Positions 10,630-29,682 of a stretch of 64,000 nt of DNA are shown piece by piece. The stretch comes from Candidatus Bathyarchaeota archaeon (lineage in GTDB: Archaea; Thermoproteota; Bathyarchaeia; Bathyarchaeales; Bathycorpusculaceae), in assembly GCA_026014485.1 (NCBI GenBank), contig JAOZIE010000014.1, positions 101,017 through 165,016 on the forward strand, in the 5' to 3' direction. A program made the translations under genes and the position numbers. The notes under the pieces are model-generated. The model was not told the DNA's origin and did no database searches. It saw only the letters and a program-made list of their open reading frames with translations. Each line of letters begins with the position of its first letter. Position 1 is the first letter of the stretch.

Positions 10630-10650
10630 ACTACCAAGGAGACCGATAAG

Positions 10651-11235
10651 ATGTTGATGCAGAAACCAAGCAAAGCCAAACAAGCCTCTATAATGGCTAT
10701 GTCCGCGGCGCTCTACGCCATATTCTTCTTTCTGTCATGGTCAGTGACGCTGCCTGGGTTCACTCTTCTTTATCTGCCGATTATTCTGCTGGGCGTTTTC
10801 CCGTTTTGGTTCGGCTGGAGCGGACTCGTAGGAAGCATGGTCGGCGGCTTCATCGGCGGCGCCTTCGTTGAAGGTCTAGGGTTGCTGGGTGTTTTTGAGA
10901 TTGTTGTAGCGGTTCTGATTTACATGCTAAACTGGGCGCTCATTCCACAAAAGGCTGAGGACGGAAAAGGAAGAGGCATCTTCACACTTTTGGGTGTGTA
11001 TGCTTTGAGCCTTTTCGCAGGAACCAGCTATATTCTTTGGCAGTACACGGTTCTGCCGCAGTTGTTCACAGCAACCGAAGCACTGCCCATCTTGGCGACG
11101 ACGTACGCTCTTAACCTGCCAATTGTGATGATAGCCTGTCCTGCTTTGCTTAGGGCGATTTCCCCGAAGTTGAAGAGTTGGGGAATCTACTCAGGCAACC
11201 TCTGGGAATGGAACAGAAACAGAAGCAAAAACTGA
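10651..11235 (+). CDS. ECF transporter S-component-like membrane protein (CblT-like candidate)
   Basis: A 194-residue integral membrane protein with about five to six transmembrane helices and an N-terminal MAMSAALYAIFFFLS segment typical of energy-coupling-factor substrate-binding (S) components. A glycine-rich loop (GSMVGGFIGGAFVEGLG) lies in the middle. AAGGAG at 10636-10641 gives a good start at ATG 10651, directly after cobT. S components bind a vitamin and share a separate EcfAAT module, which is not in this window. Position between cobT and cobD, with a CblS-like kinase gene opposite, points to alpha-ribazole or a related lower-ligand precursor as substrate, as for CblT. Substrate is inference from context; the S-component fold is fairly clear. 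Confidence 0.65.
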   Translation: MLMQKPSKAKQASIMAMSAALYAIFFFLSWSVTLPGFTLLYLPIILLGVFPFWFGWSGLVGSMVGGFIGGAFVEGLGLLGVFEIVVAVLIYMLNWALIPQKAEDGKGRGIFTLLGVYALSLFAGTSYILWQYTVLPQLFTATEALPILATTYALNLPIVMIACPALLRAISPKLKSWGIYSGNLWEWNRNRSKN

Positions 11236-11319
11236 CGGCGTCGACTCATAGAGTCCGCTGACTACCCCGAATTCTTATCCACTTTTAACCGTGGTTTTTG
11301 GCTTAAAACACCCATCCGA

Positions 11320-11329
11320 ATATTTATAT
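11320..11329 (+). promoter_or_regulatory. TATA box ahead of the cobD-like gene
   Basis: ATATTTATAT is a clear archaeal TATA element about 120 bases before the GTG start at 11452. It predicts an unusually long leader of about 100 bases. I looked in that leader for the cobalamin riboswitch core GCCACTG and did not find it. Confidence 0.55.
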
Positions 11330-11451
11330 GACCTTTTAGCTTACAACAATCGAACCTTAGCCGCGAAGCCGTAAAAGCACGGGGAAAATTGTTTATGCCT
11401 TTCATAACGGATTTATTGAGCTGCCCCGAAAAGAGAGAGGGATGATTACCA

Positions 11452-12582
11452 GTGAAACCTGCGTTGGATTTGGCTAAGGCAAACTTTCGGGGTCTCACGC
11501 CATGTGTGCACGGTGCGGACGTTTTGGAAGCGGCAGGTGCGGCTGGTCTTGAACGGGAAGCAATTTTGGATTTCAGTTCCAGCGTTAACCCTTTGGGGCC
11601 ATCAGATAAAGCGCTGCAAGCCATAAAGGCGGGGTTTAGCCAGATTCCCAGTTACCCTGATTCCTATTCAAATGAGCTGCGGGACGCCATAGCCAGCCAT
11701 TACGCGGGAGTAGACAGAGGCAACGTAATTGTGAGTAACGGTTCAACGGAGCTCATTTACCTGTTTGCCGAGGCATTCATGCGTAGGGGCGATGTAGCGC
11801 TTGTTCCTGCACCATCGTTTGGGGAATACGAGACTGCCGTTCGAAAAACGGGCGAAAAAGTTCGGTATGTGAAGCTCGGCAGAGGTTTTCAGGTTACCTC
11901 AGAAAAATTTTTGCGTGCGATGTCTGGGAACGCCAAGATTGTTTATTTCTGTAACCCAAATAACCCCACAAGCATGTTGACTTCGCAGGAGACGCTTGCC
12001 TCGATTATTCAGAGTGCGCTTGAGCGGGATATTCTGGTTTTTCTGGATGAAGATTTCTTGGAGTTTGTGGACGGCGAAGAAACCTTGTCTATGATACGCA
12101 GGATTAGGGAGTTTCCGAACCTGTTTGTTTTGCGGTCGTTCACTAAACTTTTCGGGTTAACTGGACTCAGAATTGGCTACGGTGTTGCCTCAGAAGAACT
12201 CGTTAGCGTGTTGATGAACGCCAAGTTGCCTTGGAACGTTAACTGTTTAGGGCAGGCTGCTGCAGTAGCGGCTCTAAACGATGCAGAGCACCTCAAGAGA
12301 ACACTTGATTTAGTGCGAGAAGAAAAAACGTTTCTGTTTAGTCGCTTATCCAAAATCAAGGCTTTCAAGGTTTATCCGCCTGATGCCAACTTCCTATTTC
12401 TAAATATCAAGAAAACGGGTTTAACGGCTGCCCAGCTCAAGCAGAAGATGCTGCGTAAAGGCGTTTTGATTCGGGACTGCAGTTCCTTTGCTGGTTTAGA
12501 TGAGTATTACATTCGGGTTGCGGTGAAGACAAGGCAGGAAAACGAGCGGTTGCTTGCCGCGTTTAAGGAGTGTTTGAGCTAA
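11452..12582 (+). CDS. cobD: L-threonine-O-3-phosphate decarboxylase-like aminotransferase-fold enzyme
   Basis: A 376-residue fold-type I PLP enzyme. The N terminus CVHGADVLEAAG followed by LDFSSSVNPLGP is the CobD hallmark that separates it from histidinol-phosphate aminotransferase (HisC). The PLP lysine is in RSFTKLFGLTGLRIGY; FCNPNNPTS and LDEDFLEF carry the cofactor Asn and Asp. CobD makes (R)-1-amino-2-propanol phosphate, the nucleotide-loop linker attached by CbiB, whose gene follows 10 bases later. GTG at 11452 is preceded by a GAGAGAGGG purine tract about 10 bases upstream. It has its own TATA box at 11320-11329. A HisC role cannot be fully excluded but context is strongly in favour of CobD. 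Confidence 0.85.
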   Translation: MKPALDLAKANFRGLTPCVHGADVLEAAGAAGLEREAILDFSSSVNPLGPSDKALQAIKAGFSQIPSYPDSYSNELRDAIASHYAGVDRGNVIVSNGSTELIYLFAEAFMRRGDVALVPAPSFGEYETAVRKTGEKVRYVKLGRGFQVTSEKFLRAMSGNAKIVYFCNPNNPTSMLTSQETLASIIQSALERDILVFLDEDFLEFVDGEETLSMIRRIREFPNLFVLRSFTKLFGLTGLRIGYGVASEELVSVLMNAKLPWNVNCLGQAAAVAALNDAEHLKRTLDLVREEKTFLFSRLSKIKAFKVYPPDANFLFLNIKKTGLTAAQLKQKMLRKGVLIRDCSSFAGLDEYYIRVAVKTRQENERLLAAFKECLS

Positions 12583-12592
12583 AGCAGGTTTG

Positions 12593-13570
12593 ATGCTGTG
12601 GATGTTCCTGTTTGATGTGTCTTTCTTTTCGGATTCGGTTTTGGTGTTTGTTTTAGCTTTAGCTATTGATTTAGCGTTTGGCGAAATCCCCGATAGAGCT
12701 CACCCCACGGTTTGGATGGGCTACGTGATTGCGTTTCTGAAAGGCAAACTCAAATCTGGCAATCCCCGCGTGGACAAGGTGAGTGGCGTGTTTTTGTGTG
12801 TGGGGTCAGTGGCGGTTTTTGCTGTTCCCGCCTTCGCGATTCTGTGGTTGCTGCGGCAGGTTCCCGTTTGGGGCTGGCTACTCTACATTATTGCGGCGGC
12901 GATTATGCTGAAGACAACTTTTGCGCTCAAATGCATGCGGTACTACACTTCGCCAATTGAGCGGGCTTTGAAGAAGGGCGATTTAGCTGAGGCTAGGCGG
13001 TGGATGCGGTTTATTGTGCGGCGTGACCCTGAAACGCTGGATGAGCGGCATCTGGTTTCTGCGTCTGTAGAATCCATCGCGGAGAGCACCACGGACGGGG
13101 TGACTTCGCCGTTTTTCTTTTTTGCCCTGTTTGGGGTTCCAGGCGCTTTCGCGTTTCGAGTCATCAACACGTTGGATTCGATGGTGGGCTACCGTGACCC
13201 CGTGAACATAAACATCGGATGGTTCTCCGCAAAGATGGATACAATAACCAACTATGTTCCTGCAAGAATCACAGCGGTTTTGATGGTTGCCGCCTCTGCT
13301 GTGCTGGGTGCTGACTGGCACAGTTCATGGCGGATTCTGAAGCGTGACCGCAACAAAACAGCAAGCCCCAACGCAGGCTGGACAATTTCAGCTATGGCAG
13401 GCGCGTTGAACACGCAACTAGAAAAAGAAGGCAGCTACGCCCTAGGCGATGCAAAACGGTTCTCTGCAGGCGACATAACTTGGGCATGGCACATAATGCA
13501 ACTAACCACAATCCTATTCGGCATCACCGTAATCCTGCCCATTTTAGCTCTGGTAGCTTTCGTAGTGTAG
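12593..13570 (+). CDS. cbiB: Adenosylcobinamide-phosphate synthase CbiB
   Basis: A polytopic membrane protein of about 325 residues. The conserved start LALAIDLAFGEIPDRAHPTVWMG, the block SVESIAESTTDGVTSPFF and the segment NTLDSMVGYRDP are CbiB signatures. CbiB joins adenosylcobyric acid to the aminopropanol phosphate made by CobD. ATG 12593 is chosen over the TTG three bases upstream; the cobD stop is 10 bases before. There are about four to five hydrophobic helices (residues about 15-35, 60-85, 90-110, 210-230, 300-325). The usual partners CobY/CobU, CobS and CobZ are not in the window. Confidence 0.9.
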   Translation: MLWMFLFDVSFFSDSVLVFVLALAIDLAFGEIPDRAHPTVWMGYVIAFLKGKLKSGNPRVDKVSGVFLCVGSVAVFAVPAFAILWLLRQVPVWGWLLYIIAAAIMLKTTFALKCMRYYTSPIERALKKGDLAEARRWMRFIVRRDPETLDERHLVSASVESIAESTTDGVTSPFFFFALFGVPGAFAFRVINTLDSMVGYRDPVNINIGWFSAKMDTITNYVPARITAVLMVAASAVLGADWHSSWRILKRDRNKTASPNAGWTISAMAGALNTQLEKEGSYALGDAKRFSAGDITWAWHIMQLTTILFGITVILPILALVAFVV

Positions 13571-16249: not shown

Positions 16250-17479
16250 CTAGGTTTGGCTGAGGATGATGCGTTTTATTTTTCGGGGGGTGCGGTTGAG
16301 CAGTGCCTTCTTGTTTAGCGTCAGGAACCTTTGTCGTTTGACGGCGTCGGGAACCTTTGGCTCAATTTTTTGGGAGGGTGTCCGAGGCATCTCGGAGTAC
16401 TCGTAGACCTCCACGTAGTCAAGCACTACTTCGTCGAGGAGTTTGAGGCTTTTCTGGAAGTCCTCGTCGGTTTCCGTGGGGAACCCCGCAATCAACTGGC
16501 TCCGCACAATCAGGTTGGGGTATATCTTCTGCATCGCTGCGATGTATTCTTTGTATTCCTCTACGGTGTAGGGGCGGTTCATCAGCTTCAGGATTCGGTT
16601 GCTTCCTGACTCCACAGGCGACTCGATGTACCGAATCTTTCCCGTCCGCAGAATCGGCGCAAACTCATCCATCATATCCATCATGAACCGAGGATGCACA
16701 TTCCGCAAGTTAATCCTGAACTTGCCCTCCACCTCGACAAGTTCGGATAGAAGGCTGCAGAGGTTTTCACCCAAATCCGCCCCGTAAGAACCCAAATCAG
16801 TTCCCAGCAGGCTAAACCGCTTAAACCCCCGCGTCAAGCCATCTTGAAACTCGGCCCGCAACTGCTCGATGGGTTTGCTTTTTATGGTTCCGCGGGCTTG
16901 CGGCACCACACAGTAGGCGCACCTTCCACGGCACCCCGAAGAAGTTTTAATGTAAAATGTGGAAGCATCGCCAGCAGGAGCCAAGTTGAAGTGGTTATTC
17001 ACGTAATTCACCCACGACACACCAACCCGCTTAAAGCCGCGACTCAGAAACGAACCCTGATAACGCAGCAACCAACCCGCCGTCTTCTCATCATACTTCC
17101 ATGGCGCAACAAGATAATTCCCCACAGCCGCTCCTGACCCGCCAACTCCCAGTTCCTTAAGGCGGGGAAACTCAACCTCTGAAACCGTCACGTCCACAAA
17201 TTCGTCTTTGAAGATTTCAGGGTAAATTTTGGGCAGGCATCCCCAGACGATGAGCCGCTGGTTCGGATTCTTGTTCCGCTGAATTTCCCGTATGATGCTA
17301 AAGGATTGCTTCACTCTCTGCCCATGCCCGCCGCAGCAGTTAAACAGCACAACATCAGCAGCGTGCCAGTCCCCCACCATACGAAACCCGTTCTGGATAA
17401 GGAACGTTTCTGCTTTGGCGGCGTCCACACGGTTCTCTGGGCAACCGTTGCAGACCACACAGACAGAACGCTTCTCCAC
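16250..17479 (-). CDS. Methylthiotransferase-like radical SAM protein lacking a TRAM domain
   Basis: A 409-residue member of the MiaB/RimO/CDKAL1 radical SAM group. The N-terminal UPF0004 domain has the three auxiliary-cluster cysteines (NGCPEN, FNCCGG, WGCLP). The radical SAM motif CRGRCAYC sits near residue 185, followed by LLGTDLGSYG, a counterpart of the family's T-x-Q-D-x-x-x-Y-G. The protein stops at KRIILSQT right after the barrel, so the C-terminal TRAM RNA-binding domain of tRNA enzymes is missing. A complete canonical family member is encoded at 53253-54539, so this is a divergent paralogue. It is the last gene of the 12-gene minus-strand run with hemB, ubiD and B12-radical SAM genes, 29 bases after the hemB-like gene. 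Sulfur insertion or methylthiolation of a small molecule or peptide is the inferred role. Confidence 0.7.
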   Translation of the reverse strand: MEKRSVCVVCNGCPENRVDAAKAETFLIQNGFRMVGDWHAADVVLFNCCGGHGQRVKQSFSIIREIQRNKNPNQRLIVWGCLPKIYPEIFKDEFVDVTVSEVEFPRLKELGVGGSGAAVGNYLVAPWKYDEKTAGWLLRYQGSFLSRGFKRVGVSWVNYVNNHFNLAPAGDASTFYIKTSSGCRGRCAYCVVPQARGTIKSKPIEQLRAEFQDGLTRGFKRFSLLGTDLGSYGADLGENLCSLLSELVEVEGKFRINLRNVHPRFMMDMMDEFAPILRTGKIRYIESPVESGSNRILKLMNRPYTVEEYKEYIAAMQKIYPNLIVRSQLIAGFPTETDEDFQKSLKLLDEVVLDYVEVYEYSEMPRTPSQKIEPKVPDAVKRQRFLTLNKKALLNRTPRKIKRIILSQT

Positions 17480-17508: not shown

Positions 17509-18483
17509 TTAACGGTTGAGTAACGCGGCAGCTTCAAGCCCGTGGTATGTCAGAATCATGTCTGCGCCTGCCCTCTTGATGGAGTTCAGCGTCTCCATAA
17601 GCAGCCTGTCCTCGTTGAGCAGACCTTTCTCTGCCGTGGTTTTAATCATGGCGTATTCTCCGCTGACTTGGTAGGCGGCTATGGGAACCGTGGGGAACTG
17701 CTGCTTCATGCGCAGAATCAAATCTAGGTTGGTTAACGCGGGTTTAACGATGATTATGTCTGCGCCTTGGCTGATTTCCAAGTTTGCCTTTTGGATGAAC
17801 ATTTTTTCGTTAATTATGTCGATTCGGAATTTGCTGGAGTCAATTCCTGCTCTTGCCGTCCCCGCTGACTGCGTCATGGTCTGATAGAACGGCTGAAACA
17901 GGCAACTGTCCGTTTTTATGTAGCTCATAACCGCGACGTCGTCAAAGCCGCCCGCGTCCAGCGCCGCCCGAATCTGCAGCACTTGCCCGTCTGCCATGGC
18001 GGCGGGGGCAATCAGGTCGGCGCCTGCCTCCGCATGGGCAACCGCTATCTTCGCCAGCATCTGCGCGGTTTTCTCATGGAGCACCTTGCCGTTCTTTGAG
18101 TAGACGCAGAATTCTTCCCGCGTGAAATCACACATGCACACGTTGCTTATCAGAACAAGATTCTGGTCAAACTCGCTTTTGAGCCTCCGAAAAACCTGCG
18201 CGTGAAAACCGTCTTTCTGCAACGCCACCGAACCGTCCTCGTCTTTGTGGTTTATCACCCCAAACACCATGACTCCCGGTATACCTGCGTCCACTGCTTT
18301 TTGGCATGTTTTCACAGCTTCATCCAGCGACAGGTACCTTTGCCCCTTCATCGACGGAACCTCAAGGGTTTGGGCGTCTTCCCGAACAAATATGGGGAAA
18401 ACTAAATCGTTGGTGGACAGTTCAAAGGGTCTTACAAGCCGAAGCATCTGCTTCGATTTCTTAATTCTAGTCGTAACACTCAT
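17509..18483 (-). CDS. hemB: HemB (porphobilinogen synthase) homologue with altered substrate pocket
   Basis: A 324-residue protein of the HemB family by length and fold. Both Schiff-base lysines are kept (K190 in MSYIKTDS, K247 in VKPAL), as are the three metal-ligand cysteines C116, C118, C126 and the block AYQVSGEYAM. Two things differ from ordinary HemB. The YGPFR block reads FQPFY, and the GDR that follows reads IDS, so both arginines that hold the A-side aminolevulinate carboxylate are replaced. One arginine (R220) appears nearby where HemB usually has Gln. The Asp before the first metal Cys is Asn (SNVCMC). ATG 18483 follows a GAGG ribosome binding site. It may still make porphobilinogen or may join a different substrate; its cluster also contains hemA but no hemL, hemC or hemD. 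Confidence 0.75.
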   Translation of the reverse strand: MSVTTRIKKSKQMLRLVRPFELSTNDLVFPIFVREDAQTLEVPSMKGQRYLSLDEAVKTCQKAVDAGIPGVMVFGVINHKDEDGSVALQKDGFHAQVFRRLKSEFDQNLVLISNVCMCDFTREEFCVYSKNGKVLHEKTAQMLAKIAVAHAEAGADLIAPAAMADGQVLQIRAALDAGGFDDVAVMSYIKTDSCLFQPFYQTMTQSAGTARAGIDSSKFRIDIINEKMFIQKANLEISQGADIIIVKPALTNLDLILRMKQQFPTVPIAAYQVSGEYAMIKTTAEKGLLNEDRLLMETLNSIKRAGADMILTYHGLEAAALLNR

Positions 18484-18595: not shown

Positions 18596-19396
18596 TTACC
18601 TGAAGAGGCGCCTGCTTTTTCCCTGTTGCGGTGTGTTGTAGTTTGCTGACAGGGTTTCTGCGGCGTCGTAGGCTGCCTTGACGCTTTGGGAGAGTCCCCT
18701 GCGGATTTGTTTGTTCGCGCCAGAGTCAAGCCACAATTGATTCAGAAAGGGATTATCCGATACAGCCAAAACCGCCCCTGCCTGTATGCCGCATAATTGG
18801 CTGATGAGGAACAGCGCGGAGGTTTCGCATTCTATGCCCAAGATGCCTTCGCGGTTCAGTTTGGAGATTAGCTGGGTTTCTTCTTTTATGAGGGCAGCTG
18901 TGGTGTAGACTGGTCCTTTATGCACGGGGGTTTCTTGGGGCAAAGCTTTTTCAAGCGTTTCCTGAATAGCCGCGCTTGGAGCGGCGGCGACGTTTTCGGG
19001 AGCGTAGTATCTGGTTGTTCCTTCGCCTCGCATGGCGGCTGTTGGGAGAATTACGTCGCCCATTTTGATGCTGCCTTGCAGTGCGCCTGCAAACCCTACG
19101 CCCACGATTACTTTAGCTGGTGTTTTAGATAGCACTCTGACGGTGATTTCGGTGGCGAGCGCGCCCATGTCTTGGCAAACAACCGCCAAGGGAACCTCAT
19201 TATACTTTCCTATGTAGAACTGCCCTGTCTTCTTCACTTTGCTTAGCGGCTTTAGAAGCAGTTCCTCATTGTTTCTTTGGATTCCTAGCCCAACCAAAAC
19301 CACCTCAGGAATGTCTTGCCGCTTGTCTTTGGGTAAACAGCCACGCGAGAATGCGTCGAGGAATTTTTCCTCCCAACTGCCTTCACGGTTTTGCAA
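18596..19396 (-). CDS. Nucleoside phosphorylase family protein
   Basis: A 266-residue protein of the PNP/UDP phosphorylase family. The Gly-rich phosphate/ribose regions are present (VVCQDMGALATEITVRVL, VGVGFAGALQGSIKMGDVILP), as is the family motif GILGIECETSALFLISQ, where ExE contacts ribose. The C terminus has the AVSDNPFLNQLWLDS segment. Uridine phosphorylase-like or hydrolase (futalosine or methylthioadenosine type) specificity is possible. Start TTG 19396 has AGGGTG just upstream. It lies between DUF362 and the hemB-like gene in the same minus-strand run, so cleavage of a nucleoside intermediate (for example a product of a radical SAM step) is conceivable, but this is speculative. Confidence 0.75.
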   Translation of the reverse strand: MQNREGSWEEKFLDAFSRGCLPKDKRQDIPEVVLVGLGIQRNNEELLLKPLSKVKKTGQFYIGKYNEVPLAVVCQDMGALATEITVRVLSKTPAKVIVGVGFAGALQGSIKMGDVILPTAAMRGEGTTRYYAPENVAAAPSAAIQETLEKALPQETPVHKGPVYTTAALIKEETQLISKLNREGILGIECETSALFLISQLCGIQAGAVLAVSDNPFLNQLWLDSGANKQIRRGLSQSVKAAYDAAETLSANYNTPQQGKSRRLFR

Positions 19397-19464: not shown

Positions 19465-20277
19465 TTAAATCGGTTTCAGTTCGTAGTCAATTTTGCCCAC
19501 GCCGAACTCAGCAGCGTACTTCAGGTGTCGTATCTGCTCGGGCTTGGGTTTTCCCAGAATCCGCTTCAGTTTCCGCTCTACCTTCACCAAAAGCTCAAAT
19601 CCATATGCGTCTAAGCTGACGGGGTCGGCGCCTGCATACATGCATCCAAGCTCAGCGGTTTTACCCCCATGCCTCATCTCCTGCGCGCAAATCATCGTTT
19701 GAACCGCATCCACAACATAGAAGTCAGGCTTTCGGACCCTGCTGAGTTCCGCAATTGCCTTGTGTATGTCTTTGTTTTTGTTTTGGTGTAGAAACTGTTT
19801 TTCGTGGTCTGAGAGGAACCCGTACTGGTTTTTCAACGCTCCCGTCAACCCCGTGGAAAAGTTATACTTTAAAACAGGCAGAGAAACCATGCAATCAAAT
19901 TCCCAAAGCGCCGATGAAACCTCAAGGTCAAAACCGCTTTGCGTGCGGATGGTCTTCATTTTGGGTTTGGCTAAATCAACAAAATCAACATTCAGGTTTC
20001 TGCAGAGTTTGGCTATAGGGTACTGCAGGATGTCGACGGGGCAGTCGAAGGCTTTCCCGTCGCCCACCCCCACTTTATCTGCGCTTTTCTTGAGCTGTTC
20101 AACAACCGCCTGAACCGTCTCAAGATGTGTCGTCGTCGGGTAAGCTTCATAGGAAACCATGTTGGGTTTAACCAGCACGGTTTTGCCCCTGACTTTTTCT
20201 GCGACTTTTTCCGCGGCAAAGAATTTTTGGACAAACACGCGGCGATTTGTGGTTTTTTCCCAGTAAACCGTTGACAT
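19465..20277 (-). CDS. DUF362 family protein
   Basis: A 270-residue DUF362 protein without a ferredoxin extension. Typical elements are VLVKPNMVSYEAYPTTTHLETVQAVVEQL, KVGVGDGKAF, the segment LPVLKYNFSTGLTGALKNQYGFL and DAVQTMICAQEMRHGG with ADPVSLDAYGFELL near the end. DUF362 proteins recur next to radical SAM and redox enzymes in anaerobes, but no general biochemical function is established that I know of. ATG 20277. It sits 76 bases after the first B12-radical SAM gene stop and before the nucleoside phosphorylase, all co-directional. Confidence 0.8.
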   Translation of the reverse strand: MSTVYWEKTTNRRVFVQKFFAAEKVAEKVRGKTVLVKPNMVSYEAYPTTTHLETVQAVVEQLKKSADKVGVGDGKAFDCPVDILQYPIAKLCRNLNVDFVDLAKPKMKTIRTQSGFDLEVSSALWEFDCMVSLPVLKYNFSTGLTGALKNQYGFLSDHEKQFLHQNKNKDIHKAIAELSRVRKPDFYVVDAVQTMICAQEMRHGGKTAELGCMYAGADPVSLDAYGFELLVKVERKLKRILGKPKPEQIRHLKYAAEFGVGKIDYELKPI

Positions 20278-20353: not shown

Positions 20354-21835
20354 TTAGTGTGCCTTTAGTTTTCCCTTTAGCCGGTTGTGTATGTATCTTG
20401 GGATTTGGGGTGCGTTTGAGATGAAGTCTTTTGCCACCTTTCCCAAGTGTCCCTGCTGGAGGTCGCTGGTCATCTGGCTCCACTGCCGTTTGAATGAGGC
20501 TTCACTCACCAAGTACTCTCGGGCTTTCTCCATGTCCCCAGACGTAAACGTCGGCATGTTCAGCACAGGTTTTGAAAGACCATACTGGTTCCAGTCTCTG
20601 GTGACTATCCAGCCGTTACGTTCAGCCAACTCGTACAGTTGAGTGCCTGGGTACGGGGTCGCCAGAGAAACAGAAAACACGTCTGGTTTCACCCTGTCGA
20701 TGAACGCTGCCGTATTCCTCACTGTATCCCATGTTTCCCCAGGTAACCCCACAATAAAATTGGTCTCCACCAGTATTCCTTCGTTCTGGATGGCTTTGAT
20801 GTTTTTTGTGACGGTTTCCATGTTGCAGGCTGATTTGCCCAGTTTCTGGAAGAGTTCAGGGTCGCCTGTTTCAATTCCCAACTGGATGCGGGTGCAGCCT
20901 GCCTTCTTCATTTTCTTAAGAAGCTCCACTGAAAGCTTGTCTGCTCGGGTCTCGCAAGCCCACGAAACCCGTACGCCTCGCTGGATTATTTGGTTGCAAA
21001 TTGATAGAGCTCGGTTGGTGTCCATGCTGAAGGCTTGGTCTTCGAACCAGACAACTTCCACGCCGTACTTTTTCACCAAACCTTCGACATCGTCCACGAT
21101 TTTGGTCGGTGACCGTCCCCGCCACTTGCCAAAAACAACGGGGTAAACGCAGTAAATACAGTTAAACGAGCACCCGTGGCTGCCCAACACCGAAGCAAAC
21201 CTGACAAAACGGCTGCTTGACTCTCCAGCGATAAACGACGACTTCTTCACCGTGTACCTGCTTAAGTCTAAGAGGTGGTAGGCAGGCGGCGGCAGAGAAT
21301 CAAGATCCCGATTCAACGGGAGACTCAGGAAATCCACGTATCTGCCTTCACTCTGCTCAACGCGTTCTCCCGCTGGGATTTTCTGGGCTTGCTGCACCGC
21401 TTCAGACACGGCAAATTCCAGTTCCGCTTCGCCCACAACCAAGTCAAGCTTACTTTTCCTCATGACATCCTGCGGCGTCATCTTACACAGCGAACCCCAA
21501 CCGACCAACCTGGCTTCTGGAAGCTCCGCCTTTAGGCGAGAAATCACCGTCAAATCGCTGTCAAACGACGGCGCTGAAACCCTGCAAACAATCACATCAG
21601 GATTGAACTTTTTCACAGCCGAAAACAGCGTCGACAGACTCAAGTCGTGAATTTGCCCGTCCACCACGGCGACATCATAGCCCTTTTTTTCCAGAATAGC
21701 CGCAGCAAACGCTTCGTGAAGAGGCGGAAAAACCGTTTGTCTACTGCCCTTCTTGACGGTGGAGGCGGTTCCGAAGCCTCCGCCAAAGTCCCGCAGAACA
21801 TGAATTCCTGCTGGACTCGGCAGATTCAGTAACAA
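20354..21835 (-). CDS. B12-binding-type radical SAM protein (first)
   Basis: A protein of about 493 residues. Residues about 1-150 form a Rossmann-like cobalamin-binding domain (ILEKKGYDVAVVDGQIHDLS, FNPDVIVCRVSAPSF), without the classical DxHxxG, as is common in this class. The radical SAM motif CSFNCIYC is near residue 225 and is followed by ETRADKLSVELLKKMKKAGCTRIQLGIETG and the ELYPGT-like segment ATPYPGTQLYELAERNGW. Enzymes of this class methylate unreactive carbons or form C-C bonds in lipids, tetrapyrroles and natural products. The start is uncertain: TTG 21835 is used here, but the in-frame codons upstream (KTKI) continue the first beta strand. It is followed by DUF362 and preceded by a second enzyme of the same class. 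Confidence 0.75.
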   Translation of the reverse strand: MLLNLPSPAGIHVLRDFGGGFGTASTVKKGSRQTVFPPLHEAFAAAILEKKGYDVAVVDGQIHDLSLSTLFSAVKKFNPDVIVCRVSAPSFDSDLTVISRLKAELPEARLVGWGSLCKMTPQDVMRKSKLDLVVGEAELEFAVSEAVQQAQKIPAGERVEQSEGRYVDFLSLPLNRDLDSLPPPAYHLLDLSRYTVKKSSFIAGESSSRFVRFASVLGSHGCSFNCIYCVYPVVFGKWRGRSPTKIVDDVEGLVKKYGVEVVWFEDQAFSMDTNRALSICNQIIQRGVRVSWACETRADKLSVELLKKMKKAGCTRIQLGIETGDPELFQKLGKSACNMETVTKNIKAIQNEGILVETNFIVGLPGETWDTVRNTAAFIDRVKPDVFSVSLATPYPGTQLYELAERNGWIVTRDWNQYGLSKPVLNMPTFTSGDMEKAREYLVSEASFKRQWSQMTSDLQQGHLGKVAKDFISNAPQIPRYIHNRLKGKLKAH

Positions 21836-21887: not shown

Positions 21888-23207
21888 TTAGCTGTAGTTT
21901 GCGCCTATAACTGTCCGAAGCGCTTCAGAGAAGCCTGCTGTTAAGCCGCAGACGGCATGCGCCATTTTTTCGCCGTAATGGCTGTAGTAGACGGGTAGAA
22001 TGAGGTTGGTTTCTGGCTGGATTTTTCTTTGCTCCAGCGCCAAGTCATAGAGGGGCGTGTCAGGGTAAATGCGCATGCGGGTTAAACCGAAGGACCGAAG
22101 CTTTTTTCGGCTGATATTTAGGAATTTTGCGTGAAGATGCAAAAGCCCCCGGTAATGCGACATGTTGCCTTGGGGGAGGTCATAAACAAAGCAGTAGCCC
22201 ATGTTAGCGCCCTCTATACTGTTTGCCCAATGAGCGGTATTAACCACGCAGTCCACGGTCATGTTCTTGCAGAGCACCCGCATGGCTTCGTTTGATGCTC
22301 CGTCAGGAGAAAAATTGAATTGCGCGCAACCTGACTCCACAGCGGTTTTCATGAGTTTAAACGTCATGTAGTCTGGGCGGAAATCTGCCTGCCACTTGAT
22401 GTCTAGGTGTCTTCGGATGATTTCTTGGCAGACTTTCATGGCGTGTGAGGCGGGGTAATTGAAGATGGGATCAGAAAAGTAGAATTCTCTGATGCCATGC
22501 ACGTTGACAAGTTCTTCCAGCTCGTCAACCACCCTTTTTGGTTTTCGAAGCTTAGGAAGCGCCCCTGTTCTCTTCGGATTTGGACAGTACAGGCAGTTAA
22601 ACACGCAGCCCCGCTTAGTCTGAACTCCCATCGAATAGGGCTGCTTACGGTAGATAGAGAGGTCAAAGTGTTCTCTTGCAGGAGGCGGTAACGCATCAAA
22701 ATTTGGGTAGGTGTTGTCTCTGGCAGAAAAAATAAGTCTGTTGCCTTTGCGTGCAATCACGTTTTTGGCTTTCTCGGGGTGATTCAGGTTATCCAGCAGC
22801 TTGGGTACCGCTGCTTCACCCTCCGAGACGACTGCAAAATCAATTTCAGGGTTTCTTTTCATTATTTCCTTGGGAAAAATCGAGAAACCCGCGCCTCCAA
22901 CCAGCAGCTTCGCGTTGGGCGCTTCCTGCTTTATCAGTTTAACCAGCGAAACGAAAGGCTCATAGTAAGACCGTGGAAGCTGCCCTGGAGAGCACGTCAC
23001 GCTGTCTATGTTTCTGAGCGATAAGCCGATGACATCTGGCTGAAACTTTTCAATGCTGGACTTCAAATTCCCGTTAAAGTTGTTAACGTTTGAGTCTAAA
23101 CATAAAACCTCATGTTTCCTGAGCGAACCCGCAATGTAGGCTAACCCCAACGGAAAAACCGTGCACTCACATGTGCTGGTCGGTGTTTGGCAAAGCAGAA
23201 CTTTCAC
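21888..23207 (-). CDS. B12-binding-type radical SAM protein (second)
   Basis: A 439-residue protein. The cobalamin-type N-terminal domain starts with VLLCQTPTSTCECTVFPLGLAYIAGSLRKH and has the SLRNIDS and VGGAGFSIFPKEIM segments. The radical SAM motif CVFNCLYC is at about residue 205, followed by NPKRTGALPKLRKP and EFYFSDPIFNYPASHAMKVC. The pattern is that of the subfamily where the substrate is drawn in by the VxGGxxxxxxP domain. GTG 23207 overlaps the end of the ubiD gene by 41 bases, implying co-translation. It is only distantly related to its neighbour at 20354, so the two probably do different steps. Confidence 0.75.
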   Translation of the reverse strand: MKVLLCQTPTSTCECTVFPLGLAYIAGSLRKHEVLCLDSNVNNFNGNLKSSIEKFQPDVIGLSLRNIDSVTCSPGQLPRSYYEPFVSLVKLIKQEAPNAKLLVGGAGFSIFPKEIMKRNPEIDFAVVSEGEAAVPKLLDNLNHPEKAKNVIARKGNRLIFSARDNTYPNFDALPPPAREHFDLSIYRKQPYSMGVQTKRGCVFNCLYCPNPKRTGALPKLRKPKRVVDELEELVNVHGIREFYFSDPIFNYPASHAMKVCQEIIRRHLDIKWQADFRPDYMTFKLMKTAVESGCAQFNFSPDGASNEAMRVLCKNMTVDCVVNTAHWANSIEGANMGYCFVYDLPQGNMSHYRGLLHLHAKFLNISRKKLRSFGLTRMRIYPDTPLYDLALEQRKIQPETNLILPVYYSHYGEKMAHAVCGLTAGFSEALRTVIGANYS

Positions 23208-24354
23208 AGGTAACTTCCCCCAAATGCTGTTTCGTTGAAGCAGGACTCTGTTCCAATCCGTATTCTGCCCAGTTGCGGACTGCTTTTTCAGTATCCTCCA
23301 AGGGTAACTTAACAGGCGACAGCGTCAAGCCATTTTTGAGCCTGCCGTAAAACCCGCAAGCTAACGCGGCAACCGACCTTTTTTGAGAAACGAACTCTTC
23401 TTCAGGCACGTTCTGTGGGGCACTGTTGAATGCGCCTATGTAGTGTTCTTCTTGTGGTTTTTTGCCGCTGTATGTTGCTTGATAGATGGGTTTTTCTCGA
23501 TGCGTCACGGCGGTAACCTGCAGGACGGGTTGAAGATGCGGTTTCCCGTAGTAACCGTTGCTTTCGCCGAAAGGACCCTCCATCGCCCGAATGTTAGGCG
23601 GAATCATCCCTTCAATTACAAACTCAGCGGAAGCAGGCACCTCAACGTTCACGGTTTTGCACCTCGTAACCCTCAACGGTTCCCCTCTCAACGCCCCCGC
23701 AAACTCCAATTCATCCTCGTCCAGTTCAAGGTCGGTTGCAGCAGCTAAAACCACCGCGGGGTCTAACCCCACCGCCACAGCAACCTCAAGAGGCTTACCC
23801 TTCGCCTCCGCCTTCGCATAATGCGCGGCGATGTGTCTTCCCGTCATAATGTTTACACCTAACTGCCGCTTCCCCTGCAACATCAACCTGTAAACCCCCG
23901 CGTTGCGTTTTCCAGTTTCAGGGTTCTTCGAAATCACCGCTCCAAGCGTTATGTACGGCGCGCCGTCAAGCGGGTTCCACTTCAGAACAGGCAGCCTAAA
24001 CAGGTCCACGTCATCTCCTTTGATGACCACTTCGCTGCATTGGCCATCCGAGACTTCTTTGGTGTTTAGCCACTTGCCCTGTTTTCGGTGGGACCACTCA
24101 GAAAAAAGGTGGCGTTCAACGGTTTCCAGCGCAAGAGCTATCCGCCTAAAACTGCCCAAAACACCCGCGCACATCGGGATGTCAAAGCCTTTTAGGTTCT
24201 GGAAAACCACGGCTTTTTCCCGTTTTTTCTGGAGCCTGTCCAAGATGGCGCTGACCTCAAACGATGAAACCGCCTCAACTTCCCTGTTGATTCTTGCTAG
24301 TTCGTCTTCGGCTTCAAGGTGAAGCAGAAATTCTCTTAGCCCCTCAAACGGCAT
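23167..24354 (-). CDS. UbiD-family prenylated-FMN decarboxylase, short form
   Basis: A protein of about 395 residues from ATG 24354 (GAGG 8 bases upstream; the TTG at 24369 is less likely). The prFMN-site features are present: N151 and R156 in RNAGVYRL, and the Glu pair E259/E264 in EGPFGESNGYYG. UbiD enzymes reversibly (de)carboxylate aromatic or alpha,beta-unsaturated acids using prenylated FMN from UbiX; no ubiX is in the window. After about residue 345 the normal C-terminal domain (VVDEDVD-type strand, WA-T-R region) is not found; instead there are some 50 residues of unrelated sequence, so the protein is about 50-100 residues short. It lies between a GNAT-SCP2-like gene and the second B12-radical SAM gene. 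Archaeal mevalonate-pathway UbiD homologues are an alternative, but the cluster argues against that. Confidence 0.75.
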   Translation of the reverse strand: MPFEGLREFLLHLEAEDELARINREVEAVSSFEVSAILDRLQKKREKAVVFQNLKGFDIPMCAGVLGSFRRIALALETVERHLFSEWSHRKQGKWLNTKEVSDGQCSEVVIKGDDVDLFRLPVLKWNPLDGAPYITLGAVISKNPETGKRNAGVYRLMLQGKRQLGVNIMTGRHIAAHYAKAEAKGKPLEVAVAVGLDPAVVLAAATDLELDEDELEFAGALRGEPLRVTRCKTVNVEVPASAEFVIEGMIPPNIRAMEGPFGESNGYYGKPHLQPVLQVTAVTHREKPIYQATYSGKKPQEEHYIGAFNSAPQNVPEEEFVSQKRSVAALACGFYGRLKNGLTLSPVKLPLEDTEKAVRNWAEYGLEQSPASTKQHLGEVTCESSALPNTDQHM

Positions 24355-24408
24355 CCGAAATCGCCTCAAACCTGCCCGCGACTACCCTTAACTGCCCTGT
24401 GGACGCCT

Positions 24409-25218
24409 CTATTTTACGGTTGCCTGCAAGATTTTGAAGGCGCGCCGCAACTTGAAGAGGTGTCTTAGTCCTTTTTTGATTCTGATTTTTCCAGTTATCC
24501 ACGCCTTAAATAGGTCGCCTACGCTTGCGCTTTCGCCGATGATTGACTCCGACAAAGGCAGATATCCTTCGATGACCACGTTGGGGTCTTGGGGTTCCTG
24601 CTCGTCTAAGCGGACACCTTGGGAGTCAATGTACACGGTGAATTTTGGGGCGCCCTTAAGTCTGAAAACAACGTTTAGGTTGAGTTCCCCAAACTTTCTT
24701 TTAAGCTGCTCATCGGATTCACAGCAGCGGTTCATCCTTTGAAATTTCTCTTTGAGCTTGTTGCAGGTGAAGAGCTTTTTGTAGGCTACCGCGTGGGTGG
24801 GTAACAGGACGTATCCCGCCGCAGGCTGATACAGGCTTCTGTTTAAACCAGCGTTGGTAAACATGAAACTCAACAAAATGCCCTTTTTTTCGAATGCCCC
24901 TGAAGAACGCAGATGCGCCAAAAGCCCTCTACCTAACCCCTGCCTTCTGTAGGCGCAGTCAACGGTTACATCTCCAGCCAGAGCAGCCCTAACCTGAATG
25001 TTCTTTGACAACTTGAGGTTTCGGGGAAGCCAATGGTTACAGCCGATTAACTGCTGATTCTCCTCTGCTAAAACCACAAGGTCAGGGTCAAAATCTGGAT
25101 TTGACTTGTACTTCCAAACCCAATAGTTATCCTGCTTGAAGCTTCCAAAAGATTTCTTCAATAGCTCCTGCAATGCAGCTTCGTCACCGTCTGAATAAGT
25201 CCTAAAAGAGTGATTCAT
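24409..25218 (-). CDS. GNAT acyltransferase with C-terminal SCP2-like domain (second of pair)
   Basis: A protein of about 269 residues. Residues 3-145 are a GNAT fold with the CoA-binding loop RRQGLGRGLL. Residues about 165-269 resemble the SCP2/sterol-carrier-like domain seen at the C terminus of Eis-type acetyltransferases (FTVYIDSQGVRLDEQEPQDPNVVIEGYLP, then SESIIGESASVGDLFKAW and a basic end). ATG 25218 is chosen because the upstream gene's stop at 25226-25228 is part of a GGGTGA ribosome binding site 7 bases away. Likely acylates an amine with a CoA thioester, possibly the product of the PaaK-like ligase in the same run. Substrate unknown. Confidence 0.7.
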   Translation of the reverse strand: MNHSFRTYSDGDEAALQELLKKSFGSFKQDNYWVWKYKSNPDFDPDLVVLAEENQQLIGCNHWLPRNLKLSKNIQVRAALAGDVTVDCAYRRQGLGRGLLAHLRSSGAFEKKGILLSFMFTNAGLNRSLYQPAAGYVLLPTHAVAYKKLFTCNKLKEKFQRMNRCCESDEQLKRKFGELNLNVVFRLKGAPKFTVYIDSQGVRLDEQEPQDPNVVIEGYLPLSESIIGESASVGDLFKAWITGKIRIKKGLRHLFKLRRAFKILQATVK

Positions 25219-25225
25219 TTCTGTT

Positions 25226-26098
25226 TCACCCAATATCCGCTCTTGGAATAGCCCACATAGACTTAACCTGCATCAGCGAAAGCAGCCTAACGGTTTTCTG
25301 CAGTTTCCAAAAAGGACGCACTTGAATTCGAGAAGACAAAACCGCTTTTCTAACGCTTCCAGCACCGAATAAAACCGACACAAACGTCTGCAGGTCAATG
25401 GTGACCGTAACTTCAGGGTTGACTGCGCCATTAATCAGGGAGAAGCCCTTTTTCTCTGTTTTTAGAACAAACTGGTTCTTGAACCAATCGGGGCATTTGG
25501 TCACCTGAAACATAAACGTTCCCTCAAAGTCTATGGCTTCCTTTCTGCTTTGAAGAACTTCACTTAGCAGACGGGGCAAGTCCATCACGCTCAAGAAACA
25601 CTGCTCAGCAGGCGTTTCCACAAAATCCAATTCTTGGCATACTTCTCGGACAACTTGGTTTTCGGCGTATTCGTTTAGGACAAGCGAGTCGCTTCCAACA
25701 TTTCTAGCGTACTCCGCAGCCTGAGTCAACAGCTTTCTGAAGACCGCTTTGCCGTCGCAGTTTGTGCAGTAACTCATTTCCCAGATGTTCCCAGTTTTTC
25801 CAACAACCGCATAACCCACCACTTCGTTTTGCACGGCGGCTACGAATATGCCTTCTTTTTCTACGTCTGGGCGGGTGAGACAGCACCACCTCCAGTAGGC
25901 GGGGGTTCGAGGCGCAAAACCCGCCAAATGAGTGTGGGTTTGGTTGAAAAGACGCGCCAGTTCCTCCTCGTCACCCTCTCTGTACGTTCTCAGGACACAC
26001 TTTTCTGCATCTGTCCTCAAGCTTTGCTTGTTGCCTGTTGGGTTTTGCACGGTTACAAACGGACTGCAAAAAAGTTTTCTCACCGAAAACTGCTTCAT
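25226..26098 (-). CDS. GNAT-like protein with C-terminal SCP2-like domain (first of pair)
   Basis: About 290 residues from ATG 26098, which overlaps the deacetylase stop in the sequence ATGA and has GGGGAG upstream. The architecture matches its neighbour: a GNAT-type N-terminal domain (VLRTYREGDEEELARLFN, VGYAVVGKTGNIWEMSYC) and an SCP2-like C-terminal domain (GFSLINGAVNPEVTVTIDLQTFVSVLFGAGSV). The CoA loop is degenerate: where RxxGxG/A is expected the sequence is CDGKAVFRKLL, so catalysis is doubtful and it may form an inactive or regulatory subunit with the downstream protein. The tandem arrangement suggests a heteromer. Confidence 0.65.
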   Translation of the reverse strand: MKQFSVRKLFCSPFVTVQNPTGNKQSLRTDAEKCVLRTYREGDEEELARLFNQTHTHLAGFAPRTPAYWRWCCLTRPDVEKEGIFVAAVQNEVVGYAVVGKTGNIWEMSYCTNCDGKAVFRKLLTQAAEYARNVGSDSLVLNEYAENQVVREVCQELDFVETPAEQCFLSVMDLPRLLSEVLQSRKEAIDFEGTFMFQVTKCPDWFKNQFVLKTEKKGFSLINGAVNPEVTVTIDLQTFVSVLFGAGSVRKAVLSSRIQVRPFWKLQKTVRLLSLMQVKSMWAIPRADIG

Positions 26099-27021
26099 AG
26101 GGCATCTCCCCATTTGGCGTTAGCTTTTTGCGCTGCCGAAAGCATCGTCTCAACCGTTAACGAGCCATTCCGCACTTTACCTTGAGCATATTTGAGAAAC
26201 GGCGAGAAAACTTTTGCAACGTATTTCTTTATTTTGTCGTCGGAATCTCCGAAAGTCCACGGGTGAAACCACAGGTGCAGGGGAACTTTTTTGGCTACGG
26301 CTACATCCAGTATCCAATCCAAAATCATCGGGGTTACACTAAGGTTAAGGTATAGGCTCGGATGGACATTGTATAGGTTGCCTCTTTTTTCTATGTACAT
26401 CCCATCACCCAAGGGGCTTCCAGCGGATTCCCTGTAGCATCGGTAGTTAAATTTCTCCAGCAAATCTAAATGCTGCACCATATTTCTTGGGAAAACGAAG
26501 CTCTTCGGGGACACCGTGAACTTTCTTAAGCCCACAGCGATTTTTTCAAGTTCTTCTTGGGCTTCTTCTCTTGAAAGAGCCTGAAAATTCCTATGGGTGT
26601 ACCCATGCGCGCCAATATCATGTTTGACTGGGGAATCAAGCAGTTTATCCACAATTTCCTGTGCGACTTGGGCGAATTCGGTTATTTGACCGCGCAGGGC
26701 AAAGGTGGCAGGTACTTCAAACTCGTTGAATGCTCCAAGAAAAACTGGAAGCGCGCGTTCTTCGATGTCGCCGATGTAGGCTTCGCTGAAGCATTTGTGA
26801 ACGTTCGAGTCGTTTTTTCCTCCGTTAGCCAACCCTAACTCTTTGTTGCCTGCATCTACATCCACCGAGAAAATCAGCATCGCCTTGTCAAACTGGGCTC
26901 TTGGCTTCTTCAACTCGAAGGATACCAAATGGACCACTTGAGAAACTAGGGAGACGGAGCTCTCGATAGCTCTGCCCCGTTTCTCGGTTAAGAACAAATC
27001 AGAAAAGGCTTTTTTCGCCAC
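26095..27021 (-). CDS. Polysaccharide deacetylase-like (NodB fold) protein
   Basis: A 308-residue protein with a carbohydrate esterase family 4 type barrel. Motif 1 is FSVDVDAG (metal and base Asp) and motif 2 is HDIGAHGYTHRNF (metal His pair). The later segments FVFPRNM and LHLWFHPWTFGD replace motifs 3 and 5, as in the archaeal and polyketide-cluster variants that act on small amides. There is no signal peptide, so it is intracellular. This fits deacetylation of a biosynthetic intermediate rather than cell wall. The first 45 residues before the barrel are helical. GTG 27021; 23 bases after hemA stop. Confidence 0.8.
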   Translation of the reverse strand: MAKKAFSDLFLTEKRGRAIESSVSLVSQVVHLVSFELKKPRAQFDKAMLIFSVDVDAGNKELGLANGGKNDSNVHKCFSEAYIGDIEERALPVFLGAFNEFEVPATFALRGQITEFAQVAQEIVDKLLDSPVKHDIGAHGYTHRNFQALSREEAQEELEKIAVGLRKFTVSPKSFVFPRNMVQHLDLLEKFNYRCYRESAGSPLGDGMYIEKRGNLYNVHPSLYLNLSVTPMILDWILDVAVAKKVPLHLWFHPWTFGDSDDKIKKYVAKVFSPFLKYAQGKVRNGSLTVETMLSAAQKANAKWGDAL

Positions 27022-27044: not shown

Positions 27045-28364
27045 CTAAATGACAAACTCGTAAGCGACCTTTTTAGCCGCATTAATTTCGTTTGTGGGTT
27101 CTGAGGTTTTTGTTTGAAAAATCTTCTCCGCTACAGTCAGCACTTCGCCGTTGTTGCTTAAAGCTGCCTCCCTCAACTGTTCTATGGGGATATGCGCGAT
27201 TCTTTCGGTGAGTTCACGGGAGAATCTGTCTAAAACCATGAGTTTTTTCTTGTCCAGTTTACCCATTTTGCGGACAGCCCTGTCCAGCTCTTTTTTGCGG
27301 ATTTCCTCAAATTTCCTGCAGATATCCGTGATTAACGGCTGAGCCACCAGCTTTGAAAGCTCCGCTTCAAAACGTTCAAGCTCCTCCGCAATTATGGCTT
27401 TAGATTTCTCCGCTTCTGCCTCTCGGTTTTTCAGGTTCTGAGCCACCAATTTTTTGAGGTCGTCAATTGTTCTGAGGCTGATTCCCTGAAGTGCCCCCAC
27501 TTTCTCTTCGACAGCGCGAGGCTGCGAAATGTCAATTATAAGCAGCCGCTTTGACGGCTCAAAGCTGTGGACAAAAGCCGAAACCTGTTCCTCCCTAAAA
27601 ATCGGCTGCGTAACTGAAACCGCCGCGATAACTAAATCCACATAAGGCATGGTTGACAGGACGCTTTCAAACTGCACGGCTTCCCCCGAGATTTTCTGGG
27701 CGAGAAGCAAGCTTTTCTCGTAGCTTCTGTTCGCAACCATTATGGCCGCGGCAGATTTGCTTTTGAGGGTTTCAGCGGCCAGCGTTCCTGCTTCTCCCGC
27801 GCCGATAATCAGGGCCTTTCTAGATGTTAGGTCCCCTAGTTCTTTTGCGGCAAGGTCAACGGCGGCTGAACTAATCGAAAGTGCGCCTTCGTTTATTCTG
27901 GTTTCATTGCGGATTTTTCTGCCCGTGTTTATGGCTTTCATGAAGGCTCGGTTCAGAATCACGCCGACGGTTCCGTTTGCTTTAGCCCTGCGCCATGAAC
28001 TGTGTACTTGCCCCAGAATTTGGTCTTCGCCGATAACCACCGATTCTAAGCCTCCCCCCAAATAGAACAGGTGCCTTAACGCTTCCTTTCCCTGAAACGC
28101 CTGCACTGTTCTGGATATGATGTCTAGGCTGACGCCTGTCTCGGTGCTCCAAAACTTCAAAGCGTTGTTAACTGCCTCGCCGTTTTTCTGCTTTGACGAC
28201 ACATAAAAAACTTCGACGCGGTGACAGGTCTGATGCAGAATACACTCCTGCACTGAACCATTCTCCATCAGTTTATGAGTGAACTTAGTTTCGTCATTAA
28301 TTTTTAATGCCTCAAGAAGGGGTAAACTAGCGTTCTTGTGGGAGACCGAAAGGCAACCTATCAT
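27045..28364 (-). CDS. hemA: Glutamyl-tRNA reductase HemA
   Basis: A protein of about 440 residues from ATG 28364 (MIGCLSVSHKNASLPLLEAL is the family start; the longer frame to 28460 would overlap the PaaK-like gene). It has the catalytic Cys in TCHRVEVF (TCNR in most enzymes; the essential Thr-Cys-x-Arg is kept), GGGLESVVIGEDQILGQV, the NADPH-binding Rossmann loop IIGAGEAGTLAAETL, LLIIDISQPRAVE, and the C-terminal dimerisation helix. HemA reduces glutamyl-tRNA to glutamate-1-semialdehyde, the first step of tetrapyrrole (heme, F430, B12) synthesis. Genes for GSA aminomutase and later steps are absent from the window, while a changed HemB lies nine genes downstream, which suggests a pathway other than ordinary tetrapyrrole synthesis. 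Confidence 0.9.
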   Translation of the reverse strand: MIGCLSVSHKNASLPLLEALKINDETKFTHKLMENGSVQECILHQTCHRVEVFYVSSKQKNGEAVNNALKFWSTETGVSLDIISRTVQAFQGKEALRHLFYLGGGLESVVIGEDQILGQVHSSWRRAKANGTVGVILNRAFMKAINTGRKIRNETRINEGALSISSAAVDLAAKELGDLTSRKALIIGAGEAGTLAAETLKSKSAAAIMVANRSYEKSLLLAQKISGEAVQFESVLSTMPYVDLVIAAVSVTQPIFREEQVSAFVHSFEPSKRLLIIDISQPRAVEEKVGALQGISLRTIDDLKKLVAQNLKNREAEAEKSKAIIAEELERFEAELSKLVAQPLITDICRKFEEIRKKELDRAVRKMGKLDKKKLMVLDRFSRELTERIAHIPIEQLREAALSNNGEVLTVAEKIFQTKTSEPTNEINAAKKVAYEFVI

Positions 28365-28398: not shown

Positions 28399-29682
28399 TT
28401 AAGAAATAACGATGACTTTCTTGAATTTGTTTTCAAATTCGCCCTGCGGGACAAACGCAACCTCGTTGAATCCTATTCCAACCCGCGTCTTGATTTCCAT
28501 GGTGATTTCCTGCTTGAGCGTTTTATCCCGGTACGCTGGCAAAGAAGCGGCGGTTTCAACCCGAAGAGTCGCTTCGTGGGCGGGGGTTCGTTTATCAACG
28601 ATTATCTGGCATTTGCCGGTGACTTCTGGGAACTTTGACAGCAGAAACTCTATGTGGCTTGGAAAAATGGTTACCCCCCGGATTTTAGTCATGGAATCTT
28701 CTCTGTCGATGTCTGCGCTGATGGTGGGGTGGCACAAGCCGCATTCGCATTTGGTGAAGCCCAAGTAGGTGGTTAAATCCTTTGAAAGGTAACGCACAAG
28801 CGGGAACGCCTCTCTTTGCAGACTAGTGATTACCAGCTCGCCTCGTTCGCCTATTCCCAGAGGCTCATGAGTTTTGGGGTCTACCACTTCAACAAGGTAG
28901 TATTCTGGCCAAACATGATGCACGTCAGGGTTGCTCTTGCAGTTAACGGAGAATCCTGGAAACTCCGTGGCGCCGTAGTCTGAGATTACCGTCCTGTAGC
29001 CGCCCTCCATTTTAAGAATCTCCGTTTGCGTCTTGGTCGGTTTTTCAGCGACGCACACCGCAAGTTTAAGCTTGTATCTGCTCAAATCTTCACCCAGCGA
29101 CTTAGCAACTTCCAGGATTCTAAAGTGATAGTTAGTTGCGGCGTAGAGGATGGTGGTTCCAAACTGCTTTATCAGAAGAATCTGCCTCTCCGTCTCTGCT
29201 GGACCAACTGGTATGACAAACGCCCCGATTCTTTCGGCGCCCCAATGCATTGACCAAGCAGCCTGCCACAGCCCATACGCAGATGTTATCTGGACGACAT
29301 CCTTTTTTGTGGCTCCATAGTAGAGGAGTCTTCTTGCGGAAGCGTCAGTGATCATGGCTATGTCTCTTTTTGTGTGGGCAACTCTCAGTGGGTTTCCCGT
29401 GGTTCCGCTGGACATGCGTACGGTTGAAATCTCTGAGGGCGGCACGGCTAAAATGCCCTTGAAGTTCTGCTCTAACTCTTCTCTGCTGGTTAACGGAACC
29501 TTAGCAAAATCCTTTAGGCTGTTGATTTGCGACGGCTTGACGCCTGCAGCATCAAATTTTTCACGGTAGAAACGGCTTCTATGGTAGACTCTCCGTAGCT
29601 GCCTCTGCAGGAGGCTAAGCTGGTGTTCTTCTAATTCCTTAAAAGATTCTCGCGTTTTTTCTTTCAAAAAAAGTTCAGTCAT
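28399..29682 (-). CDS. PaaK-like AMP-forming CoA ligase
   Basis: A 427-residue adenylate-forming enzyme of the phenylacetate-CoA ligase group. The P-loop MSSGTTGNPL is near residue 90, YGATEFPG is the A5 motif, GERGELVITSLQREAFPLVRYLSKDLT covers A7/A8, and RGVTIFPSHIE is the PaaK-type C-terminal domain entry. A Cys pair (CECGLCHP) is inserted near residue 320 and could bind zinc. It would activate an aryl or acyl acid through an adenylate to a CoA thioester. It is the first gene of the twelve-gene minus-strand run, with hemA starting 34 bases later. In that setting, it may feed the GNAT-like acyltransferases. Substrate unknown. Confidence 0.8.
   Translation of the reverse strand: MTELFLKEKTRESFKELEEHQLSLLQRQLRRVYHRSRFYREKFDAAGVKPSQINSLKDFAKVPLTSREELEQNFKGILAVPPSEISTVRMSSGTTGNPLRVAHTKRDIAMITDASARRLLYYGATKKDVVQITSAYGLWQAAWSMHWGAERIGAFVIPVGPAETERQILLIKQFGTTILYAATNYHFRILEVAKSLGEDLSRYKLKLAVCVAEKPTKTQTEILKMEGGYRTVISDYGATEFPGFSVNCKSNPDVHHVWPEYYLVEVVDPKTHEPLGIGERGELVITSLQREAFPLVRYLSKDLTTYLGFTKCECGLCHPTISADIDREDSMTKIRGVTIFPSHIEFLLSKFPEVTGKCQIIVDKRTPAHEATLRVETAASLPAYRDKTLKQEITMEIKTRVGIGFNEVAFVPQGEFENKFKKVIVIS

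Follow-up and report, generated by a model that had tools for sequence, protein, structure and literature searches.

Porphobilinogen synthase (HemB or ALAD, PF00490) joins two molecules of aminolevulinate (ALA) into porphobilinogen, and the A-side and P-side of the enzyme have been defined (PMC7725820). HemC and HemD consume the product, and according to a review no alternative path to uroporphyrinogen III has been reported (PMC7242693). In the C5 pathway, ALA is supplied by HemA and HemL. A second ALA supply dedicated to secondary metabolites is known from the C5N unit (2-amino-3-hydroxycyclopent-2-enone) of actinomycetes, whose pathway combines a cyclising ALA synthase with an ALA-CoA ligase and amide synthase (PMC4525017). 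Literature searches gave no report of a HemB homologue within a non-tetrapyrrole cluster, and no paper that lists the A-side arginines.

The window, by which we mean the whole stretch of 64,000 nucleotides analyzed here from a Bathyarchaeia genome, contains a gene for a HemB homologue, HemB2, within a run of linked genes (Table 1). The HemB2 frame starts with an ATG at 18483 on the minus strand, and an in-frame TTG lies at 18489. A sequence-only reading of the window had already recognized a HemB homologue, which is borne out by the ALAD profile PF00490 (316.9 bits, cut-off 24.6) and by the fold. The structure predicted with AlphaFold (mean pLDDT 86) has a confident barrel and a lid with pLDDT <50. 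The model matches the solved HemB structures of E. coli (1i8j and 1b4e), Pyrobaculum (5lzl) and Chlorobium (1w1z) at Z 37-39 over ~300 residues, with deoxyribose-phosphate aldolases as the next family at Z ~20. HemB2 also scores above the equivalog threshold of the NCBIfam porphobilinogen synthase model (319 bits, cut-off 297).

Table 1. Features of HemB2 and of the linked genes, in positions of the window.
Feature	Position	Strand	Evidence or remark
MiaB/RimO-like radical SAM protein	16250..17479	-	TIGR00089 243.1 bits, under subfamily cut-off 251
HemB2, paralogue of HemB/porphobilinogen synthase, A-side pocket remodelled, 324 aa	17509..18483	-	ALAD Pfam, clade, residue table
K247, P-side Schiff-base lysine (E. 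coli K247), retained	17743..17745	-	Residue table and codon check
Altered lid: Y200 (for R205), R211 (new), S216 (for R216), R220 (for Q220)	17824..17886	-	Residue table and codons
K190, A-side Schiff-base lysine (E. coli K195), retained	17914..17916	-	Residue table and codon check
A161, replaces invariant Ser (E. coli S165)	18001..18003	-	Ser in 38/38 ordinary HemB, Ala in all HemB2
Metal cysteines C116, C118, C126, retained	18106..18138	-	Residue table and codon check
N114, replaces invariant Asp (E. coli D118)	18142..18144	-	Asp in 38/38 ordinary HemB, Asn in all HemB2
Nucleoside phosphorylase-like protein	18596..19396	-	PF01048
DUF362 protein	19465..20277	-	PF04015; DUF362 also beside HemB2 in G036, 24-26% identity
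B12-binding radical SAM protein 2 (HpnJ/BchE-like)	20354..21835	-	PF02310 and PF04055
B12-binding radical SAM protein 1 (BzaD-like, under cut-off)	21888..23207	-	51% identity to a B12 radical SAM protein of the G018 cluster
UbiD-family decarboxylase	23167..24369	-	PF01977; TIGR00148 above cut-off
GNAT acetyltransferase b	24409..25233	-	PF13527; 36% to G018; conserved in G018 and G045 modules
GNAT acetyltransferase a	25226..26113	-	PF00583; 33% to G018; conserved in G018 and G045 modules
Polysaccharide deacetylase-like protein	26095..27021	-	PF01522
HemA2, glutamyl-tRNA reductase paralogue (open frame to 28460)	27045..28364	-	TIGR01035 358 bits, cut-off 210
PaaK-like acyl-activating ligase	28399..29682	-	TIGR02155 262.7 bits, under its cut-off

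HemB2 has the fold of porphobilinogen synthase (VIA-align Z ~38) and shares with it two Schiff-base lysines, three metal cysteines and the P-side Ser and Tyr. Residues were compared in an alignment with 38 ordinary HemB, including those of E. coli and Chlorobium; four HemB2 copies entered the residue table and the fifth, from genome G173, was compared separately (published E. coli residue numbers equal the alignment index of the table plus one). Both Schiff-base lysines are present in 38/38 ordinary HemB and retained in HemB2. K247, S273 and Y312 (elsewhere numbered S274 and Y313), which form the P-side ALA pocket, are retained in all HemB2. HemB2 differs from porphobilinogen synthase on the A-side. 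In the HemB structures of yeast, E. coli and Pseudomonas, D118, S165, R205, R216 and Q220 contact the A-side ALA, and all five positions are altered in every HemB2 (D118N, S165A, R205F/Y, R216S/P and Q220R in E. coli numbering). Among ordinary HemB, R205 and Q220 are found in 38/38 and R216 in 37/38 (one Lys), and each of the five HemB2 copies departs at all three. The HemB2 lid is longer than in ordinary HemB and includes two new arginines, R211 and R220, kept in 5/5 copies. In the window, the codons of K190, K247, C116/C118/C126, Y200 (E. coli R205), S216 (R216) and R220 (Q220) were verified.

The alignment and codons agree with the sequence-only reading on the retained lysines and metal cysteines, on the loss of both A-side arginines and on a new arginine, R220, at the usual Gln. 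The changes of D118 to N114 and of S165 to A161 and the second lid arginine R211 had been overlooked, as had the ordinary hemB of which the gene is a paralogue and the linked HemA2, HemL and ligase genes. A proposed gapless alignment to the motif IDS was mistaken; one residue is missing ahead of K190, and the lid has gained a few residues net before IDS. The wide alignment also addressed whether the change is usual in archaeal HemB: it was found in 0/38 ordinary HemB, and Pyrobaculum 5lzl carries the ordinary residues. A common archaeal HemB variant was rejected on this count and on the presence of HemB2 in only four genomes of the class and phylum sets.

The joint shift of five A-side positions, invariant or nearly so in the 38 ordinary HemB, would be left unexplained if the product were the same. 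This speaks against a less likely reading in which HemB2 still converts two ALA into porphobilinogen, with R211 and R220 gripping the A-side carboxylate anew and porphobilinogen serving as a block of a non-tetrapyrrole product. Such an activity would fit the retained lysines and metal cysteines, the equivalog score and the conservation of both new arginines, as well as the provision of ALA by a HemA/HemL pair and a PaaK-like ligase that could activate the acetate arm of porphobilinogen. The low confidence of the lid means that the model cannot place R211 and R220. These residues could hold a carboxylate in a new way, leaving porphobilinogen as a possible product. A changed A-side partner is nevertheless fairly likely, if less firm than a role outside tetrapyrrole synthesis. 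The earlier proposal, that the A-side substrate is another one or sits differently, is strengthened by the concerted changes at five A-side positions, the conserved P-side, the fixation of these changes in a monophyletic clade and the occurrence of HemB2 without detected HemC and HemD in two near-complete genomes. It stays conditional on how the two arginines of the poorly modelled lid treat the carboxylate.

HemB2 is a paralogue. The window genome encodes an ordinary HemB (485 bits) in the same stretch as HemL, HemC and HemD, with an ordinary HemA close by; these ordinary hemA, B, L, C and D genes are on contig C2, separate from HemB2. The two HemB proteins of the genome are 39% identical. 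The presence of the ordinary hemB excludes HemB2 as the sole heme HemB of the window genome. Five HemB2 copies were found in 4/256 Bathyarchaeia genomes searched, namely the window genome, G018, G036 (two copies) and G173, and none was added by a 398-genome phylum sample that overlaps the class set. Scans of IMG/VR with HemB2 and HemA2 gave no matches. Beyond the known HemB2, a scan of the genome_contigs set recovered three full-length HemB at 39-42% identity and one short fragment. The HemB2 copies form one clade (support 100/100) on a stem of 1.45 changes per column, and the other copies are 65-69% identical to the window copy. HemB2 reaches 643-683 bits against its profile versus at most 330 bits for ordinary HemB. 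Third codon positions differ by 48-68% between copies and the protein sequence is conserved; the two G036 copies differ by 0.135, 0.046 and 0.477 at codon positions 1, 2 and 3. By these measures, HemB2 is a real clade under constraint. A pseudogene or sequencing artefact was ruled out by the five intact copies in four separate genomes and by the third-position bias. At both G036 loci (L027 and L028), a Gfo/Idh/MocA protein and then a DUF362 protein come after HemB2, which resembles a duplicated cluster. A HemB match of any kind was found in only 73/256 Bathyarchaeia genomes, so that the majority seem to lack a way from ALA to tetrapyrroles.

The main argument for a role outside tetrapyrrole synthesis comes from two near-complete genomes. 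An ALAD search retrieved HemB2 as the only HemB in G018 (estimated 100% complete) and G036 (estimated 99%). HMM searches, on which all gene absences in these metagenome assemblies rest, found neither HemC nor HemD in G018, G036 and G173 (71% complete). The same searches gave matches in the window genome and most control genomes. Enzymes to consume porphobilinogen in the same organism were thus detected in the window genome, together with its ordinary HemB, and in none of the other three HemB2 holders. In G018 and G036, HemA2 adjoins a HemL that scores above the curated cut-off, so ALA can be made there. With HemB2 as sole HemB and HemC and HemD undetected, tetrapyrrole synthesis by the known route is impossible for HemB2 in these two genomes, and a different product is probable. 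No HemB2 was detected in G045 (85% complete), which carries the remaining genes of the module, and no HemA in G173. A second HemL-like aminotransferase (421 bits, hemL cut-off 527) lies beside MobA-like and ParA-like genes in G018 (L069, contig C22) and G173 (L068, contig C56).

Another reading makes HemB2 a back-up porphobilinogen synthase that serves heme, siroheme or B12 synthesis. Membership of the HemB family and the adjoining B12 nucleotide-loop-type genes of the window (cbiB) would be in keeping with such a role. However, the near-complete genomes with HemB2 as only HemB yielded no HemC and HemD, no other uroporphyrinogen III route is known (PMC7242693), and the window genome is already served by an ordinary hemB accompanied by hemL, C and D. 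A spare enzyme is thus very improbable. HemB2 acting outside tetrapyrrole synthesis is, in turn, very likely and the firmest part of our overall reading.

HemB2 is linked to genes for ALA supply, acyl activation and acyl transfer. In the window, a co-directional run extends from the PaaK-like ligase at 29682 through HemB2 down to the MiaB-like protein at 16250. The gene order in G018 is GNATa, GNATb, ligase, HemA2 and HemL, then sugar and glycosyltransferase genes and a B12 radical SAM protein, with HemB2 ~12 kb further on. G045 repeats the order GNATa-GNATb-ligase-HemA2-HemL on a short contig. HemA2 and HemB2 each occur in four of the 256 genomes and share three, an overlap with a chance of ~6e-6 if genomes were independent, which they are not. 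Relatives of the ligase at 63-66% identity were found in only G018 and G045 among the 256 genomes. The accessory genes differ among clusters, and no MiaB/RimO-like radical SAM protein was found in the G018 neighbourhood. Genes for a sugar epimerase, a UDP-sugar dehydrogenase, PIG-L or glycosyltransferases are recurrent near HemB2 or the module. In G036 and G173, HemB2 is surrounded by glycosyltransferases, Gfo/Idh/MocA oxidoreductases, SPASM radical SAM proteins and a PIG-L deacetylase. The window has glycosyltransferase-like and sugar-modifying frames at 37-48 kb, recognized by reading. On the opposite strand near the HemB2 cluster, positions 9538-13570 (+) carry B12-related genes comprising a CobT-like frame (by reading), an aminotransferase and CbiB/CobD (Pfam). 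An 812-aa frame at 29825-32263 (+) has a near-exact internal repeat of ~200 residues (two LamG-like copies, by reading) followed by a glycoside-hydrolase-like part.

Compared with the C5 pathway, HemA2 and the linked HemL score above the NCBIfam equivalog cut-offs. HemA2 nevertheless forms a separate clade-like group, with identities of 56, 55 and 50% to the G045, G018 and G036 copies and 35% to the ordinary HemA of its own genome. It is linked to the ligase and GNATs instead of hemB-hemL-hemC. HemA2 and its relatives have TCHRVE next to the catalytic Cys versus TCNRVE in ordinary HemA.

The module also recalls the C5N pathway by having a second ALA source for secondary metabolism, next to which lie an acyl-activating ligase and enzymes that might form amides. 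It differs in deriving ALA through HemA and HemL rather than an ALA synthase, in the presence of a HemB homologue and in its archaeal, sugar-rich setting. Of the C5N triad, only a ligase, of the PaaK-like type, has a counterpart; no ALA synthase or amide synthase was found among the annotated neighbours. HemB2 might bind just one ALA, or an ALA thioester, as a Schiff base and cyclise or rearrange it, for example to a C5N-like ring, with ALA-CoA supplied by the ligase. The pairing of a second ALA source with an ALA-CoA ligase and amide synthase in the C5N pathway (PMC4525017) and the position of HemA2 beside the PaaK-like ligase in the window genome (G000), G018 and G045 would agree with this, and a masked carboxyl would fit the lost carboxylate arginines. 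We regard a single-substrate reaction as improbable, however, given that the A-side lysine and metal cysteines are retained, which suggests a two-site condensation, and that cyclisation in C5N pathways is done by the ALA synthase itself (PMC4525017).

We suggest, with moderate confidence, that HemB2, a paralogue of porphobilinogen synthase, has been neofunctionalised for an ALA branch of its own that leads elsewhere than to tetrapyrroles, and that its A-side partner is altered. HemA2 and HemL would provide ALA from glutamyl-tRNA, with HemL coming from the linked copy in G018, G036 and G045 and from a shared chromosomal copy in the window genome. The P-side lysine K247, together with S274 and Y313, would hold one ALA as usual. 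On the A-side, K190 might take a ketone or amino-ketone other than free ALA, or one whose carboxyl is masked or turned in the bound state. The product would then be a non-porphobilinogen pyrrole or a related condensate. The PaaK-like ligase and the GNATs probably serve to activate a unit and to attach it, perhaps to a surface or secreted glycan made by the neighbouring genes. The full route, from ALA and a different ketone to a new pyrrole-type unit activated and attached to a surface glycan, is proposed tentatively. The glycan as target, suggested by the sugar-related gene neighbourhoods, is a possibility and the least firm part of the proposal.

HemB is taken strictly as a marker for the synthesis of tetrapyrroles, and annotation calls HemB2 a porphobilinogen synthase given its score above the equivalog cut-off. 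If the proposal is true, HemB2 would be a member of the HemB family with a task outside tetrapyrrole biosynthesis. The gene is small and open to direct tests. Should HemB2 have another product, it would represent a naturally rebuilt A-side in an enzyme with a long-studied substrate order and asymmetry, and a new class of ALA-derived compounds would be there to be discovered. The joint presence of HemA, HemL and HemB would then be no proof of heme or B12 capacity in archaea.
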